Positions 2,566 through 63,936 of a stretch of DNA of 64,000 nucleotides are shown piece by piece. A model generated the notes under the pieces. That model was given only the letters and a program-made list of their open reading frames with translations. It did no database searches and was not told where the DNA came from. Location: NCBI RefSeq assembly GCF_009498035.1, contig NZ_CP034550.1:8742001-8806000 (forward strand), read 5' to 3'. How positions within the stretch are numbered: position 1 is the first letter of the stretch; every line of letters begins with the position of its first letter. Source of the DNA: Saccharothrix syringae (GTDB lineage Bacteria; Actinomycetota; Actinomycetes; Mycobacteriales; Pseudonocardiaceae). A program made the translations under genes and the position numbers.

Positions 2566-2675
2566 GCGAGTCGAACCGCCGGCCCCGCCGTGTCGAACCT
2601 CCAGGACCCCCGAGTTCGACGTTCGGGGCACGCGGGTTCGACGTTCGGGACCCCGGGTTCGACGTTCGGGGCACG
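2566..2675 (+). repeat. 22-bp phased intergenic repeat array, site A (5 units)
   Basis: Five related units begin at 2566, 2588, 2610, 2632 and 2653, spaced 22, 22, 22 and 21 bp. Their first 11 bases are GCGAGTCGAAC, CCGTGTCGAAC, CCGAGTTCGAC, GCGGGTTCGAC and CCGGGTTCGAC. Each is followed by a tail, often GTTCGGG(G/A). The array fills the gap between the convergent 3' ends of the kinase gene and the methyltransferase remnant. The same unit family recurs at about 20.4-20.67, 33.54 and 63.7-63.95 kb. Function unknown. Confidence 0.8.
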
Positions 2676-16570: not shown

Positions 16571-17584
16571 CTAGCCGGACCTGCGGACCACCAGGGTCGG
16601 GGCGAACACCACGGAGCTGACCGGGCGGTCCGGTCGCTCGACGCGCTCCACGAGCAACCGGGCCATCTCGGCCGCCATGTCCTCCACGGGCTGCCGCACC
16701 GTGGTCAGCGGCGGGTCGCACTCGACCGCGGGGCTGCTGTCGTCGAACCCGACCACCTTCACGTCCTCCGGCACCCGCAGGCCGTGGTTGCGCAGCACCG
16801 GCAGCGCGCCCGTGGCCATCAGGTCGGAGGCGACGAACAGGCCGTCGAACCCCTCCCCGGCCCTCCCCTCGGCGGCCACCAGCTCCCGGGCCGCCGCGGC
16901 GCCGCCCTCGCGGGAGAAGTCGCCCTCGACGACCAGCGGTTCGGGCAGGCCGTGCCGGGCCACCGCCTCGCGGAAGCCCCGCAGCCGGTCCTGGCCCGCG
17001 GGCGCGTCCAGCGGCCCGGTGATCGTGGCCACCCGGCGGCACCCGCGGGCCACCAGGTGGTCGACGGCCAGCCCCGCGCCGGCGGCCTGGTCGACGTCGA
17101 CGTAGGTGATCGGCATCGGCCGGACCGGGCGCGCGGCCAGCACGACCGGCAGGTTCGACTCGATCAGCAGGCGCGGCAGCGGGTCCGCGCCGTGGGTGTG
17201 GATCAGGATGACGCCGTCCAGCCTGCGCTGCCGGACGTCGTCGACCACCTCGCGGTGGCCGCCGGGGTCGGTGGTGGTCAGCACCAGCTGCACGCCCAGC
17301 GGTCGGATCACCGGCAGCACGCCGGCGACCACCCGGCCGAAGTACGGGTCGTGCAGCGTGCGCCCCTCGTCCGGCAGGACGAGGCCGATCGCGCCCGCCC
17401 GCCGGGTGACGAGCGAACGCGCCGCGCGGTTGGGGGTGTACCCGGTCGTGGAGATCGCCTTCTCCACCACCTGGCGCAGCTCCCGGTCCACCGTGGCGAC
17501 CCCGTTGACCACCCGGGACACCGTGGCCCGCGACACCCCCGCGACCCGCGCGACCTCCTCCAGCGTGACTGGTCTGCGGTCCAC
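16571..17584 (-). CDS. LacI-family transcriptional regulator
   Basis: A 337-residue repressor. The HTH is VTLEEVARVAGVSRATVSRVVNG with hinge helix region TPNRAARSLVTRRAG. The periplasmic-binding-like effector domain contains IGLVLPDEG, DGVILIHTHG, GCRRVATITGP, DGLFVASDLMATGAL, VKVVGFDDS and PPLTTVRQPVEDMA. GTG 17584 starts 10 residues before the HTH. It lies downstream of the DUF1996-GH16 pair on the same strand, beyond a strong hairpin. It is the obvious candidate to bind the GAGAGCGCTCTC palindromes in front of that pair, with a sugar ligand as inducer (inference). Confidence 0.92.
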   Translation of the reverse strand: MDRRPVTLEEVARVAGVSRATVSRVVNGVATVDRELRQVVEKAISTTGYTPNRAARSLVTRRAGAIGLVLPDEGRTLHDPYFGRVVAGVLPVIRPLGVQLVLTTTDPGGHREVVDDVRQRRLDGVILIHTHGADPLPRLLIESNLPVVLAARPVRPMPITYVDVDQAAGAGLAVDHLVARGCRRVATITGPLDAPAGQDRLRGFREAVARHGLPEPLVVEGDFSREGGAAAARELVAAEGRAGEGFDGLFVASDLMATGALPVLRNHGLRVPEDVKVVGFDDSSPAVECDPPLTTVRQPVEDMAAEMARLLVERVERPDRPVSSVVFAPTLVVRRSG

Positions 17585-17639: not shown

Positions 17640-19340
17640 CTACTGGTAGACGCGGACGTAGTCGACCAGCATCCGCTGCGGGAAGGTGGTGCCGGCGTCC
17701 GGCGGACCGGGCCAGTCACCGCCCACCGCGTTGTTGAGCAGGATGAAGAAGGGCTTGTCGAACACCCACGGCCCGCGGGTCGCCTCCACCGTCGCCTTGT
17801 CGATGGTGAGGACCGTCACGCCGTCGATGCTGAACGTGATGCCCCGGCTGTTCCAGTCGGCCCGGAACAGGTGGAAGGCGTTCGCGTAGTCCTGGCCGAT
17901 GTCGCGGACCTGGCCGATCCCGCCCCCGCCGAAGTACGCCGGGCCGTGGATCGTCTGGTACGCGGTGTTCGGCTCGCGCCCCAGGTGCTCCATGATGTCG
18001 ATCTCACCGCTCGCGGGCCACGGCGTGCCCTTGAAGATGTCGGTGCCGAGCATCCAGAACGCGGGCCACAGGCCCTTGGTGCCCGACACCTTGATCGACG
18101 CCTCGAAGCGCCCGTAGGTCCACGACGCCTTCCCCTCGGTGATGATGCGCGCCGAGGTGTACTGGCAGGTGCCGCTGCCGCTGACCGGGTCCACCGGGCA
18201 CGCCGAGCCCGGCGTCACCTCGCGCCTCGCCTCCAGCACCATGTTGCCGTTGCCGTCGGTGAAGGCGTTGCGGTTGTCGGTGTAGTACTGCAGCTCCGCG
18301 TTCTGCCCGGTGCCGACCTCCGGACGCCACTTGGCGGGGTCCGGCCGCGTGCCCGCGGGCGCGTTGAACTCGTCGCTCCACACCAGCCGCAGCGGGTTGC
18401 CGGGGTCCGGGGCCTGCGGCGGTGGCGGCGTGGGGCTGCCGCCGGTGCCGTAGACCTGGAACTCCCACAGCGAGTACCCGTACGGACCGCTGCGCTTGGT
18501 CAGGTTCACCCGGACGTAGCGACCCGTGCCGGTGACGTTCAGGGTCTGCTTGAAACCCGTGCCCGTCGTGGTGCTGTGGATGGTGGTCCACCCGGACGCG
18601 TTCGCCGAGGTCTGGATCTCGAACCCGGTGGCGAACGCCGGGTCCCACTGGAGCACGACCTTGCTGACCTGCGCGGTCGCCCCCAGGTCGACGTAGATCC
18701 AGCCCGGGTCGACCCAGCCCGTGGTGGCGCTGGTGGCCCACCTGGTGGCCGGGTTGTAGTCGGTCACCTTGGCCGGCGTGCAGCCGGGGCACGCGCCGTC
18801 GTCCTGGAACGACGAGGCGAACGCCGGCTTGTTGTACGACAGCAGCTGCTCGCCGCCGCCGGGCTGGCCGCTCGTGCCGGTCCGCACGGCGAACTCCCAC
18901 AGCGACACGCCGTACTGCGTGGCGCGCGCCGTGGCGTAGAGCCGGACGTAGCGGCCGGTGCCCGTGAAGGTGATGTCCTGCGTGCCGCCCGTGCCGGTGG
19001 TCGTGGAGAACACCGTGGTCCAGGCGTTGCCGTCGGCGGAGACCTGGACCTGGTACGCCGTCGCGTAGGCGGCCTCCCAGGTCAGCGTCGCGCCGCACAC
19101 CTCGCGGGTGGTGCCGAGGTCGACCCGCAGCCACTGCGGGTCGCCGAACGCGCTGGACCAGCGCGTGCCCGGGTTGCCGTCCACCGCCGAGGCGGCGGTG
19201 AACGGGCTCCCGGTCTCCACCGACGACGCGGTCACCGGTGCGTTGAGCGCCGCGTTGGCCGTGCCGCACTCGGCCGCCCCGGCCGTGACCGGGACGAGCA
19301 GCGGCAGGACCAGCGCTAGCGCGGCGACCAGGCGCTTCAC
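17640..19340 (-). CDS. Secreted GH16 beta-glucanase with two discoidin (F5/8C)-like domains
   Basis: A 566-residue extracellular enzyme. Signal peptide about 1-23 (LVAALALVLPLLVPVTAGAA). Two F5/8-type C (CBM32-like) domains follow, at about 28-153 and 166-298. Both end with SLWEF(A/Q)V and contain NP(G/A)TRW, (R/Y)VDLG and TGTGRYVR(L/V). A Pro linker leads to the GH16 domain (about 315-566) with GEIDIMEHLG, nucleophile Glu446 and acid/base Glu451. It likely hydrolyses beta-1,3 or mixed beta-1,3/1,4 glucan. GTG 19340 overlaps the DUF1996 stop by GTGA, so the two are translated together. Confidence 0.93.
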   Translation of the reverse strand: MKRLVAALALVLPLLVPVTAGAAECGTANAALNAPVTASSVETGSPFTAASAVDGNPGTRWSSAFGDPQWLRVDLGTTREVCGATLTWEAAYATAYQVQVSADGNAWTTVFSTTTGTGGTQDITFTGTGRYVRLYATARATQYGVSLWEFAVRTGTSGQPGGGEQLLSYNKPAFASSFQDDGACPGCTPAKVTDYNPATRWATSATTGWVDPGWIYVDLGATAQVSKVVLQWDPAFATGFEIQTSANASGWTTIHSTTTGTGFKQTLNVTGTGRYVRVNLTKRSGPYGYSLWEFQVYGTGGSPTPPPPQAPDPGNPLRLVWSDEFNAPAGTRPDPAKWRPEVGTGQNAELQYYTDNRNAFTDGNGNMVLEARREVTPGSACPVDPVSGSGTCQYTSARIITEGKASWTYGRFEASIKVSGTKGLWPAFWMLGTDIFKGTPWPASGEIDIMEHLGREPNTAYQTIHGPAYFGGGGIGQVRDIGQDYANAFHLFRADWNSRGITFSIDGVTVLTIDKATVEATRGPWVFDKPFFILLNNAVGGDWPGPPDAGTTFPQRMLVDYVRVYQ

Positions 19341-20233
19341 GACGGCCGGCCGTCCGCGCCGCACTTGATGATCGGGTTGATGCAGTCGCGCACCCGGCGG
19401 GCCAGCTCGGCCTCCGGCCACGCGTTGAAGAAGTCGCCGTGCATGGTGTAGCCCGGGCCCGAGGCCAGCCGGAAGCCGGCCGGGTTGCCGCTGACCGGGT
19501 AGCGCAGCACCTGGCGGAGCTTCGGCACCGGCACCGGGTGGGTCGACGGGCAGGCGCCCCCGACCGGGTAGGACATGTGGGACTTGTGGTCCGCCGAGTC
19601 CAGGTCACGGCCGTTCCAGCACTGCGGGAAGTCCAGGTACGACTCCAGCATGGTGCCGGACGGGCAGGTGACGAAGTCCTTCGACGGCGCCACCTGGCCC
19701 GCGTGCAGGCACGACCACCGGGCGTTGGAGCTGGGGTCGTTCACGCCGGTGGCCTTGGCGTTGCCGGCGACGATGCGCAGGCCGAGCGGGAACGGCTGGA
19801 TGCGGGCGGTGATGTCCTCGCGGACGCCCTCGCCGAGGTAGTAGAACGTGGTGCCGGTCGGCTCCACGGGCTGGTTGTTCACGTAGAGGGTCGGGACCCA
19901 GTACGAGGACAGGTCGACGCCCGGGTTGCAGTTGCTCGTGCCCGCGAGCAGGGACTGGACGGTGGTGCGGGCGTTGGTGGTCCGGTTGCCGAAGAAGCTG
20001 TGCATGTGGGAGGCACCGGGCAGGTTGGGCGCGACGATCGGGTCGTCCGGCAGGCGGTGGCTGTAGGGGCAGTCGGCGAGGAACTCGGCGACCCGCACGA
20101 CGTTCGCCCCGACCTCCTGGGGGGCGGGCGCGGCGGAGCCGGGGACGGTGACGAGGGCCAGCCCGCAAACGGCTGCCACCCCCGAGGCGAGTGCCGTGAC
20201 CATACGACGCCATCGGCGAATGGTGGGGATCAC
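19337..20233 (-). CDS. Secreted DUF1996 protein
   Basis: A 298-residue exported protein. The twin-arginine-like start IRRWRRMVTALASGVAAV is followed by a hydrophobic core and AAPAPQ cleavage region. The DUF1996 domain has CPYSHRLPDDPIVAPNLPGASHMHSFFGN, YWVPTLYVN, FPLGLRIVAGN, CPSGTMLESYLDFPQCWNGRDLDS and HKSHMSYPVG. In fungi and bacteria DUF1996 proteins occur with glycanases, but their reaction is unknown. GTG 20233 follows AAAGGGGAG. Directly coupled to GH16. The promoter and two CebR-like palindromes lie immediately upstream, so both genes are probably sugar-induced. Confidence 0.88.
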   Translation of the reverse strand: MIPTIRRWRRMVTALASGVAAVCGLALVTVPGSAAPAPQEVGANVVRVAEFLADCPYSHRLPDDPIVAPNLPGASHMHSFFGNRTTNARTTVQSLLAGTSNCNPGVDLSSYWVPTLYVNNQPVEPTGTTFYYLGEGVREDITARIQPFPLGLRIVAGNAKATGVNDPSSNARWSCLHAGQVAPSKDFVTCPSGTMLESYLDFPQCWNGRDLDSADHKSHMSYPVGGACPSTHPVPVPKLRQVLRYPVSGNPAGFRLASGPGYTMHGDFFNAWPEAELARRVRDCINPIIKCGADGRPS

Positions 20234-20268
20234 GACTCCCCTTTCGTAGACGTTACGAGTGGGTTTCG

Positions 20269-20280
20269 GAGAGCGCTCTC
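20269..20280. promoter_or_regulatory. LacI/CebR-like operator, proximal
   Basis: GAGAGCGCTCTC is a perfect 12-bp palindrome that starts eight bases downstream of the predicted -10, over the likely transcription start of the DUF1996-GH16 operon. The core matches the GAGCGCTC centre of the known CebR box TGGGAGCGCTCCCA. Confidence 0.7.
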
Positions 20281-20287
20281 ACAGCGG

Positions 20288-20316
20288 AACGTAAAACCGC
20301 ACCCTGTATCAGTCAA
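20288..20316 (-). promoter_or_regulatory. Predicted promoter of the DUF1996-GH16 operon
   Basis: On the minus strand TTGACT (20316-20311) and TACGTT (20293-20288) are separated by 17 bases. This is a good vegetative-type promoter for an actinomycete and lies between the two palindromic operators. Confidence 0.55.
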
Positions 20317-20354
20317 GGAAAGAAGCCATTTCCGGTCCAACCGTAACAACTTCC

Positions 20355-20370
20355 GAGAGAGCGCTCTCTC
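20355..20370. promoter_or_regulatory. LacI/CebR-like operator, distal
   Basis: GAGAGAGCGCTCTCTC is a perfect 16-bp palindrome, 38 bp upstream of the predicted -35 and about 88 bp (centre to centre) from the proximal operator. This spacing would allow looping by a tetrameric or paired LacI-type protein. Confidence 0.7.
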
Positions 20371-20379
20371 ACCTCCCCA

Positions 20380-20489
20380 CCCCTCCGAACGCAGAACTCG
20401 GGGGTCCCGAACGTTCGACACACCAGCTCCGAACGTTCGACTCGCGCACCCTCACCGCATGACACGCAAGCCCCGAGCGCATGACACGC
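20380..20489 (-). repeat. 22-bp phased repeat array, site B left arm (5 units, minus orientation)
   Basis: Unit cores lie at 20391, 20413, 20435, 20457 and 20479, exactly 22 bp apart. Read on the minus strand from the centre outward the cores are GCGTGTCATGC twice, then GCGAGTCGAAC, GTGTGTCGAAC and CCGAGTTCTGC. It mirrors the array at 20513-20666 across a 23-bp centre. Confidence 0.85.
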
Positions 20490-20492
20490 CGG

Positions 20493-20506
20493 TGGAAGCG
20501 CTCCCA
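20493..20506. promoter_or_regulatory. CebR-like box in the centre of the site B repeat
   Basis: TGGAAGCGCTCCCA differs from the CebR consensus TGGGAGCGCTCCCA at one position. It lies in the 23-bp spacer between the two oppositely oriented 22-bp repeat arrays. It is more than 250 bp from the DUF1996 start, so its regulatory target is unclear. Confidence 0.5.
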
Positions 20507-20512
20507 CCCCGC

Positions 20513-20666
20513 GCGTGTCATGCAGTCAGGACGCGCGTGTCATGCGCTCAGGACCGGCGTGTCATGCGCTCAGACCGCGCGTGTCATGCGCTCAAGCCGC
20601 GCGAGTCGAACGTTCGGGACCGGTGTGTCGAACGTTCAGGGCCCCCGAGTTCTGCGTTCGCGCGCG
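20513..20666 (+). repeat. 22-bp phased repeat array, site B right arm (7 units)
   Basis: Units start at 20513, 20535, 20557, 20579, 20601, 20623 and 20645, with no deviation from a 22-bp period. The first four share GCGTGTCATGC; the next two carry GCGAGTCGAAC and GTGTGTCGAAC followed by GTTC; the last is CCGAGTTCTGC. The array ends two bases from the IPP isomerase stop codon. The segment 20599-20615 is a perfect 17-bp inverted copy of 20431-20447 in the left arm. Confidence 0.88.
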
Positions 20667-20667
20667 G

Positions 20668-21258
20668 TTAGAGGGTGGCGGCGGCGGGGAGGGTGGTGGC
20701 GGGGGCGGTGGGCCAGGCGAGGGGGTCGGGGCCCAGCTCGTGGAGTTCGGCCACCTGGAGGGCGCACCAGGGGGAGATGGGGCGGGCGCCGGCCAGGACG
20801 GCGGGGGCGAAGTCGGCCCAGGGGACCCACTCGAACGAGTCGACCTCGTCCGGGTTGGGGGTGGGAGCCGGGTCGTCGGGGACGATGCCGCGGAAGACGG
20901 GGCACATCTCGTTCTCGACGACGCCGTTCTCCATCACCGCCCGGTAGCGGAACGCGGGCAGCACCAGGTCGAGGGGGGTTTCGGCCAGGCCGAGCTCGTC
21001 GTGCAGGCGCCGGGTGACGGCGAGCCGCAGGGGCTCGCCCGGTGCCGGGTGGCCGCAGCACGAGTTGGTCCACACCCCGGGCCACGTCTTCTTGTGCAGC
21101 GCGCGCCTGGTCAGCAGCAGCCGCCCCGCCCGGTCGAACAGGTAGGACGAGAACGCCAGGTGCAGCGGGGTGGACGCGTGGTGCACGGAAGCCTTGTCGG
21201 CAACGCCGATCCCGGCACCGGACTCGTCCAGGAGCACGACTTGTTCCACGACGCCCAC
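20668..21258 (-). CDS. idi: Isopentenyl-diphosphate delta-isomerase, type I
   Basis: A 196-residue Nudix-fold enzyme interconverting isopentenyl and dimethylallyl diphosphate. The catalytic motifs TNSCCGHPAPGE with Cys67 and ENEMCPVF with Glu115 and Glu117 are intact, and length fits the type I family. It is the last gene of the minus-strand unit aldolase, DHQ synthase II, ligase, idi, with 16 bp to the ligase stop. Supply of dimethylallyl diphosphate next to aromatic C7 genes could mean a prenylated aromatic product, but a general housekeeping role is equally possible. Confidence 0.93.
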   Translation of the reverse strand: MGVVEQVVLLDESGAGIGVADKASVHHASTPLHLAFSSYLFDRAGRLLLTRRALHKKTWPGVWTNSCCGHPAPGEPLRLAVTRRLHDELGLAETPLDLVLPAFRYRAVMENGVVENEMCPVFRGIVPDDPAPTPNPDEVDSFEWVPWADFAPAVLAGARPISPWCALQVAELHELGPDPLAWPTAPATTLPAAATL

Positions 21259-33535: not shown

Positions 33536-33601
33536 CTGCGCCGAATGTGGAACTCGGGGGTCCCGGGGGTTCGACTCGCGGGGTCCGGGGGTTCGACTCG
33601 C
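33536..33601 (-). repeat. 22-bp phased intergenic repeat array, site C (3 units)
   Basis: Unit cores on the minus strand start at 33547, 33569 and 33591 (exact 22-bp steps): type-3 GTGGAACTCGG, then GTTCGACTCGC twice. The array fills the 77-bp gap between the convergent ATPase and antiporter stop codons. Confidence 0.75.
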
Positions 33602-63698: not shown

Positions 63699-63808
63699 GC
63701 GTGTCATGCACTCAGCTCCCGCGTGTCATGCACTCAACCCGCGCGAGTCGAACCTCCAGACCCCTCGTGTCGAACCTCCAGGACCCCCGAGTTCAACATT
63801 CGCGCACG
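63699..63808 (+). repeat. 22-bp phased repeat array, site D forward (5 units)
   Basis: Unit starts 63699, 63721, 63743, 63765 and 63787, exact 22-bp steps. Cores: GCGTGTCATGC, GCGTGTCATGC, GCGAGTCGAAC, TCGTGTCGAAC, CCGAGTTCAAC. This is the same order of types as in site B. Confidence 0.88.
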
Positions 63809-63826
63809 CTTGAACCCCGACCCGCA

Positions 63827-63936
63827 GGTGCCCGAACGTCGAACTCGGGGGTCGCGAAGGTTCGACACGAGGGTCGTGAACGTTCGACTCGCGCGGTCTG
63901 AGGGCATGACACGCGCGGGGTGAGGGCATGACTCGC
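63827..63936 (-). repeat. 22-bp phased repeat array, site D reverse (5 units)
   Basis: Unit cores on the plus strand start at 63838, 63860, 63882, 63904 and 63926 (exact 22-bp steps) and read GTCGAACTCGG, GTTCGACACGA, GTTCGACTCGC, GCATGACACGC and GCATGACTCGC. It is the inverted counterpart of the forward array, the two facing each other across about 18 bp. It ends 16 bp from the LacI stop codon. Confidence 0.88.

Follow-up and report, generated by a model that had tools for sequence, protein, structure and literature searches.

Between a gene for isopentenyl-diphosphate isomerase (IDI) and a DUF1996 gene, the window (the whole 64-kb stretch of DNA analysed) carries a two-armed array of 22-bp units at positions 20387-20664. 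The array lies 3 bp from the stop codon of the isomerase gene and upstream of the DUF1996 gene. On the strand of the DUF1996 gene, a GH16-type gene and a LacI-family gene come after it. The features considered are the following:

20387-20487, minus strand: left arm, with five units in the order A-A-Ba-Bt-C from the centre outward, according to core positions and unit order; cores GTGTCATGC at 20479 and 20457, GAGTCGAAC at 20435, GTGTCGAAC at 20413 and GAGTTCTGC at 20391
20488-20514, no strand: 27-bp centre, the interval between the innermost 9-bp cores, containing TGGAAGCGCTCCCA
20515-20664, plus strand: right arm, with seven units in the order A-A-A-A-Ba-Bt-C, defined in the same manner; cores GTGTCATGC at 20515, 20537, 20559 and 20581, GAGTCGAAC at 20603, GTGTCGAAC at 20625 and GAGTTCTGC at 20647
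20668-21258, minus strand: IDI gene (NCBIfam equivalog), its stop codon adjoining the array
19337-20233, minus strand: DUF1996 gene (Pfam; 19337-20179 scanned), on the other flank of the array
20269-20280 and 20357-20368: GAGAGCGCTCTC palindromes upstream of the DUF1996 gene, with a TTGACT box between the two
16571-17584, same strand as the DUF1996 gene: LacI-family gene
63701-63934, no strand: second large array, A-A-Ba-Bt-C / C-Bt-Ba-A-A, with C units inward and polarity opposite to that of the array at 20387-20664
2568-2620, plus strand: small one-arm array Ba-Bt-C with convergent genes on either side and further GGGTTCGACGTTC copies after it
33547-33599, minus strand: small one-arm array B-B-C with convergent genes on either side; an inverted partner was not seen

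When all the cores were located, the initial annotation, which had described seven units running rightward and five leftward with every step of 22 bp, proved accurate base for base, and the 17-bp inverted copies that it had called perfect (20431-20447 and 20599-20615) are indeed exact. Its three ordered unit types were right as to the order and wrong as to the number: 'GTCGAAC' splits into GAGTCGAAC followed by GTGTCGAAC, in an order that is nearly fixed. An additional unit type, GTGTCCTCC, is found elsewhere in the genome. The core GTGTCATGC occurs 9 times in the window versus 0.62 copies expected, and none of 100 shuffles reached 9. The other arrays in the window, at 63701-63934, 2568-2620 and 33547-33599, go unmentioned in the initial annotation.

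The paired GAGAGCGCTCTC palindromes and the TTGACT box recur behind IDI in syntenic relatives (loci L123-L134), where they are placed ahead of a different start.

Spacing, unit anatomy and position of the arrays

The genome is a single contig of 10.93 Mb with dnaA at position 1434. The pair GTGTCATGC-N13-GTGTCATGC has 159 copies genome-wide, and the reversed control pattern has none. At least 94 arrays, with 140 arms, were parsed, and the true total may be higher. These are regions that contain the GTGTCATGC pair or matches to profile R1 (22 arms), plus added samples; selection of loci by the exact core pair or by the profile favours intact cores. Same-strand core pairs 15-30 bp apart are separated by exactly 22 bp in 426 out of 430 cases. 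Units confined to this site, or a spacing lost in other copies, had been named in the initial annotation as the outcomes contrary to its reading; the genome-wide search found many arrays, with the spacing kept.

The unit has a consensus of approximately GWGT-word-C-GTTC-RGG-aCC-SS, with a core of about 13 bp that is GWGTYnnnCGTTC-like. The word defines the unit type: in this genome A has CATG (272 units), D has CCTC (141 units), B has CGAA, with GAGT in the first unit and GTGT in the next, and C has T-words. The order of types is strongly directional: Ba is followed by Bt 88 times and the reverse occurs once, Bt is followed by C 89 times, and A by Ba 43 times. Among 131 T units, 99 are the last of their arm and 32 precede another unit, mostly D; the rule that C is terminal is thus not strict.

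Conservation was examined in middle units chosen only by their core-matching neighbours at 22 bp, so that the middle unit itself was free. With an A unit on either side (n = 94), the middle unit is 99-100% conserved throughout its core except at position 1 (T/A), and its linker positions go as low as 41%. With B on one side and C on the other (n = 91), conservation is 96-100% in the core, position 1 excepted (92%), and as low as 43% in the linker. Since cores are near 100% while linkers have diverged in units defined by their neighbours, the core and the spacing are constrained, and much of the linker is not. The view that spacing is under selection, 'as for cooperative protein binding', is supported by the 426 pairs at 22 bp, by conservation that is higher in the core than in the linker, and by the helical quantisation of centres described below.

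Using gene calls from a simple codon-usage caller, both neighbours were assigned for 92 arrays (2 of the 94 were left out because of a sequence edge): 45 lie between convergent genes, 42 between tandem genes and 5 between divergent genes. The corresponding figures in a comparison set of 132 intergenic regions of at least 30 bp, sampled from the origin half and the window, are 22, 74 and 36. Distances of 20 bp or less between array and gene make up 53 of 132 distances to 3' ends and 2 of 52 to 5' ends. A fixed polarity relative to genes was considered and rejected, as within 60 bp 47 cases are anti and 35 are sense.

Among the R1 matches listed, 68 of 72 arrays lie within a quarter genome of dnaA, that is, in the origin half. 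In 20-kb samples taken at round coordinates, ten from the far half contain no array, and ten from the near half contain 2, both in one sample. Origin bias was discarded as a rule of the genus because it is weaker in the congener G064 (dnaA at 6.72 Mb), where the far half has 17 array clusters, compared with 28 for the near half (100 of 108 places counted; the other 8 are near). In the same genome, an array at G064:C1:6723322-6723370 is found about 160 bp beyond a match to the DnaA C-terminal domain.

The family in related genomes

The exact GTGTCATGC-N13-GTGTCATGC pair occurs in none of 389 other genomes of the taxonomic family. Profile R1, which is biased to the words of this species, detects the arrays at E 0.001 in 16 of 25 Saccharothrix genomes: 14 have 144-178 matches each, G079 has 128, G074 has 2, and the remaining nine genomes have none. 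With E 1e-8 and stricter filters, 35 of the 390 genomes in the GTDB family have R1 matches, and these represent 13 of 46 genera. When a generic three-unit pattern was searched for across 84,980 named species genomes, all 19 loci that matched were in Saccharothrix.

In the relatives, the last unit of an arm is GAGTT in 75 of 108 cases, compared with 12 of 332 other units (some loci are counted twice in these figures). None of the 867 phased units in the relatives' loci covered has CATG or CCTC, and CCTA, CGTA, CGAA and CCAA are the leading words. At 12 loci, taken from two congeners and from ten genomes outside the genus, the best lag within the range 17-27 is 22 in nine and 21 in three, with a bias to 22 because the loci were found with a 22-bp profile. 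Loci L211, L212 and L215 (genera g28, g10 and g29) have like cores whose steps are mostly 21 bp, a further preferred period close to two turns of the helix.

Two loci permit comparison of the same site across species. Behind trpS (NCBIfam equivalog), a two-arm array is located 5-18 bp past the stop codon in 14 out of 14 array-rich genomes. This amounts to 14 of the 16 profile-positive congeners and 0 of the 9 profile-negative ones; the two profile-positive genomes with none are G074 and G079. The words of the trpS array are CATG here and mostly CGAA, CCTA, CGTA or CCAA in other species. At the isomerase locus, examined in 25 genomes, 11 of 14 array-rich genomes and 0 of 11 others have cores that begin at most 35 bp from the stop codon. 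Of the three array-rich exceptions, G061 has a degenerate pair, as judged by eye, and G072 and G060 have none. The number of units varies from 2 to 12 between genomes, and the form varies too: two arms with starts facing in six genomes, a plus arm only in two, and a minus arm only in three, G064 among them. What follows IDI in G064 (L134) looks like a recent tandem expansion: seven 22-bp units, nearly identical and all oriented the same way. Hence, the place of the array is kept across species at two loci while the letters of the core differ.

Facing arms and helical register

Of the 94 arrays, 49 have one arm, 44 have two and 1 has three. Among two-arm arrays, C-side ends face each other in 21 and starts in 20, and the arms are tandem in 3. 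Arms tend to match in type (A/A in 25, D/D in 11, A/D in none, with A or D missing from one or both arms in 8), despite which an innermost A stands opposite an innermost D in 2 facing arm pairs. Facing arms are also similar in length, with a mean difference of 0.91 versus 1.38 in shuffled pairs (p 0.0005).

Centres between facing arms vary in sequence and length, but their length is quantised. The 22 '-+' centres listed for this genome measure either 4 bp (4 centres) or 26-28 bp (18 centres). Gaps between C-inward arms with both ends GAGTT-like are, in this genome, 9, 10, 19, 20, 20, 21, 21, 21, 22, 31, 31, 31, 31, 32 and 32 bp. When those of the relatives are added and similar ones are collapsed, 42 C-inward GAGTT centres remain, with gaps from -2 to 42 bp that fall mostly near 10, 20-21 and 31. 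Their best period is 10.55 bp (R 0.79), and none of 4000 controls was as good; in the controls each gap was moved by up to 5.25 bp, a jitter adopted because a single mode at 20-21 dominated the gaps of relatives in the larger centre set. Starts-facing junctions have gaps of 4, 6, 13, 15 and 25-28 bp, and 21 collapsed centres give a period of 10.75 bp (R 0.78; 0 of 2000 controls). All these p values for centre gaps are too good, given that one 20-21 mode dominates and that the arrays are related by descent. At trpS, the gaps in 11 genomes (strict rule, duplicates removed) are 1, 2, 10, 20, 20, 21, 21, 21, 22, 30 and 31 bp. The fitted period depends on the set: 10.95 for the own centres (11.05 if collapsed), 9.90 for the relatives (10.35 if collapsed) and 9.80 for trpS. 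Gaps of 1-2 bp and of 13 bp fit a helical period poorly. Altogether, these data are strong but not final evidence that facing arms share one face of the DNA duplex. According to PMC4132750, a period near 11 bp is commonly tied to the pitch that bacterial DNA has under negative supercoiling, a value that would suit the 22-bp step.

The dyad symmetry of C-inward centres is not significant, either in this genome (p 0.11 against shuffles, 0.70 against half chimeras) or in relatives (p 0.14 and 0.06). Starts-facing centres of this genome exceed shuffles (0 of 500) and do not exceed chimeras (p 0.76), so their symmetry comes from shared ends.

Proposed function and alternative explanations

The explanation that we consider best, with a probability of roughly 0.55, is that the arrays are duplex-DNA binding platforms for a putative sequence-specific protein aligned on one helical face. 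It is suggested by four features together: constraint on a core that recurs every two turns, quantisation of the gaps, a disregard for the strand of the gene, and the frequency of arrays with a single arm. The core of about 13 bp in each 22-bp unit would be recognised by the putative protein, with one site per approximately two helical turns; successive protomers would align side by side, probably in a cooperative manner, and spread along the arm. Where opposite arms meet, the sites would be in register on one face of the helix whatever the intervening sequence. The variable word may be part of the recognition, having drifted between species, presumably together with the putative protein. These platforms lie immediately after coding regions, where the flanking genes are convergent or in tandem, and this location suggests that they probably act as boundaries (of transcription end, supercoil or domain). 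A point against this reading is that similar lengths of facing arms and alike C units are also expected from hairpin selection or local inverted duplication.

A broader extension of the binding-platform reading, possible but doubtful in our opinion, is that the arrays form a chromosome-organising system. A putative Saccharothrix protein would read the 13-bp core on one face and form paired filaments behind genes, in this species mostly in the origin-proximal half. The word would have been rewritten genome-wide in a single species (here CATG and CCTC) with place and register kept, and the arrays would then be a record of a protein evolving together with its DNA code, at many sites simultaneously. 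It is common to regard the intergenic repeats of bacteria either as palindromes of a selfish kind or as hairpins formed in RNA. In this family, duplex-DNA function has its own internal test, since the spacers that separate mirrored arms, dissimilar as they are, show quantisation near one B-DNA turn. As the place of the arrays is kept across species while core letters change, co-evolution of a DNA-binding protein with many sites becomes directly testable, and the arrays might serve as easily cloned baits for finding the putative binding protein.

A bidirectional hairpin at RNA 3' ends remains a serious rival, even if we regard it as rather unlikely. In this scenario the arms would pair in the transcript and either terminate transcription or protect the 3' ends of flanking mRNAs. 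The predicted fold of the array at 20387-20664 is very stable (-211 kcal/mol, z -19), arrays stand a few bases past many stop codons with enrichment between convergent genes, and the two-arm form is kept at trpS in 14 genomes. Words and similar length are common to facing arms in this genome: at '-+' junctions, words agree at 0.90, versus 0.55 against arms of other loci. At the IDI locus, the innermost words of facing arms match in five genomes (G075, G070, G065, G071 and G069). In the loci of relatives, the similarity of words between facing arms does not clearly exceed that between loci (p 0.07 to 0.53), although it does at positions 9-12 of the innermost unit in C-inward arms (p 0.013).

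Other observations, however, indicate that an RNA hairpin is not the best reading. The 49 one-arm arrays lack a facing arm, the polarity relative to genes is mixed, the quantisation of centres is left unexplained, and facing linkers are no more complementary than those of other loci in the same species. In this genome the linkers of facing arms agree at 0.52 and those of other loci at 0.50 (p 0.12). In comparison with other arrays the figures are 0.616 and 0.587, a slight excess (z 2.1) that resides in C units; facing C units are more alike than chance in word (z 3.2) and in linker (z 3.6). With a same-species, same-junction control, linker positions 13-19 show no excess in facing arms (p 0.12-0.87 in this genome, 0.15-0.58 in relatives). 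An intrinsic terminator with a GC hairpin and a T-run was not found within 20200-20800, although terminators lacking a T-run may still exist and the T-run type may be atypical in this lineage. A search of Rfam gave nothing above the gathering score, and the matches below it are to microRNA models. One-arm arrays and non-complementary facing linkers thus weaken the RNA hairpin as the main function. The initial annotation had also proposed a large cruciform or RNA hairpin: the array can be folded on paper, and the frequency of one-arm forms together with facing linkers that are not kept complementary suggests that folding is not needed.

The arrays belong to a known kind of element, dispersed intergenic repeat arrays, with an unusual and testable architecture. 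The six 13-bp cores had no occurrence in the open-licence papers searched, nor was a description of such arrays found there. BOX elements of Streptococcus pneumoniae reportedly have a modular A-B(n)-C layout in intergenic regions, with variable copy number of one module. The modular intergenic build with variable copy number is shared; the comparison is by description only, and BOX modules are longer and not known to follow the phase of the helix. Iteron arrays of plasmid origins and multi-site operators have tandem sites near 22 bp that place one protein on one face. The arrays resemble them in the spacing of units at two helical turns and differ in that about a hundred arrays are spread over the chromosome behind genes, with no Rep protein linked. 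According to PMC4679880, marine Beggiatoaceae have TAACTGA intergenic direct repeats, with 169 sets in one genome and a proposed regulatory role. Here the likeness lies in the many intergenic direct-repeat sets, and the difference in a far shorter unit and another bacterial group. The term Saccharothrix has 0 occurrences in PMC12306157.

The closest parallel is with REP/BIME elements. According to PMC3733652, REP/BIME (GTAG- and CGTC-tagged) are present in many copies downstream of genes, in tandem and convergent regions and in pairs of opposite orientation. They are said there to be confined to core-genome regions in two species, their proposed roles involve gyrase, termination and mRNA, and REP families without a dedicated transposase exist. 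The Saccharothrix arrays are likewise high-copy, downstream of convergent or tandem genes and paired in opposite orientation, and a preference for core regions is common to both (PMC3733652). The REP unit, however, is a palindrome of 20-40 bp, and the 22-bp unit lacks a long palindrome outside type B: the longest perfect palindrome per unit measures 4 bp in 236 of 272 A units, never exceeds 8 bp in A, C and D, and reaches 10 bp in 30 of 203 B units. The arrays also differ in their tandem 22-bp repetition, ordered types, helically quantised centre and absence of a RAYT-type transposase.

Another possibility is a repeat family, selfish or neutral, whose copies spread around and are tolerated nowhere but behind genes; its order and phasing would go back to its founders. 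We judge this explanation unlikely. The REP-like placement, with divergent regions rare (5 of 92 arrays), agrees with it, and so do the variation from 2 to 12 units at one orthologous site and the existence of two larger repeats with hairpins, one with 11 and the other with 6 aligned copies, that carry arrays and look dispersed. However, cores near 100% beside diverged linkers are not given by neutral decay, and the trpS site is common to 14 species. The REP-type Y1 transposase (PF01797) has 0 matches in this genome, which led us to reject a RAYT-driven REP; within the genus, 5 of 25 genomes have it, four profile-positive and one profile-negative. A plasmid or phage origin was rejected as well, with 0 matches among 72,556 plasmid and 50,697 phage records.

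The operator consensus of CebR and the LacI family is a TGGGAGCGCTCCCA-like palindrome, and the CebR-like box that the initial annotation saw at the array centre is indeed there, even though it does not hold as a general part of the arrays. Operators of a LacI-family (CebR-like) regulator, with the arrays as side scaffolding, are a highly improbable explanation: half of the wide '-+' centres here contain AGCGCT (9 of 18, whereas a stricter parse gives 7 of 18 '-+' centres), GAGAGCGCTCTC palindromes adjoin the IDI-locus array here and in syntenic relatives, and a LacI-family gene is close by, but AGCGCT occurs in 0 of 4 tight '-+' centres, 1 of 24 '+-' centres and 0 of 57 centres of relatives, and TGGGAGCGCTCCCA with up to 3 mismatches shows no excess over chance in the window (7 found, 7.6 expected). 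The CebR box was therefore rejected as a general component.

The two larger repeats can be described as follows. One is a dispersed hairpin repeat of about 130 bp with ends TTTGACATGGG / CCCATGTCAAA, located directly ahead of one-arm arrays; 11 aligned copies are nearly invariant inside, and there is at least one more. Its loci are these:

L032 (2860-2990), L033, L035, L056, L057, L067, L068, L153, L162, L165, L166 and also L071:14320

Versions of this repeat adjoin arrays in other Saccharothrix (L075, L089 and L108). The second repeat has GAAAAGC loops and is found ahead of long A-rich arrays, with 6 aligned copies that are nearly invariant inside:

L052, L059, L156, L159, L163 and L182

Among the A-pair arrays listed between 2.7 and 8.3 Mb, three out of four (L056, L057 and L059, but not L058) ride on one or the other of these dispersed repeats.
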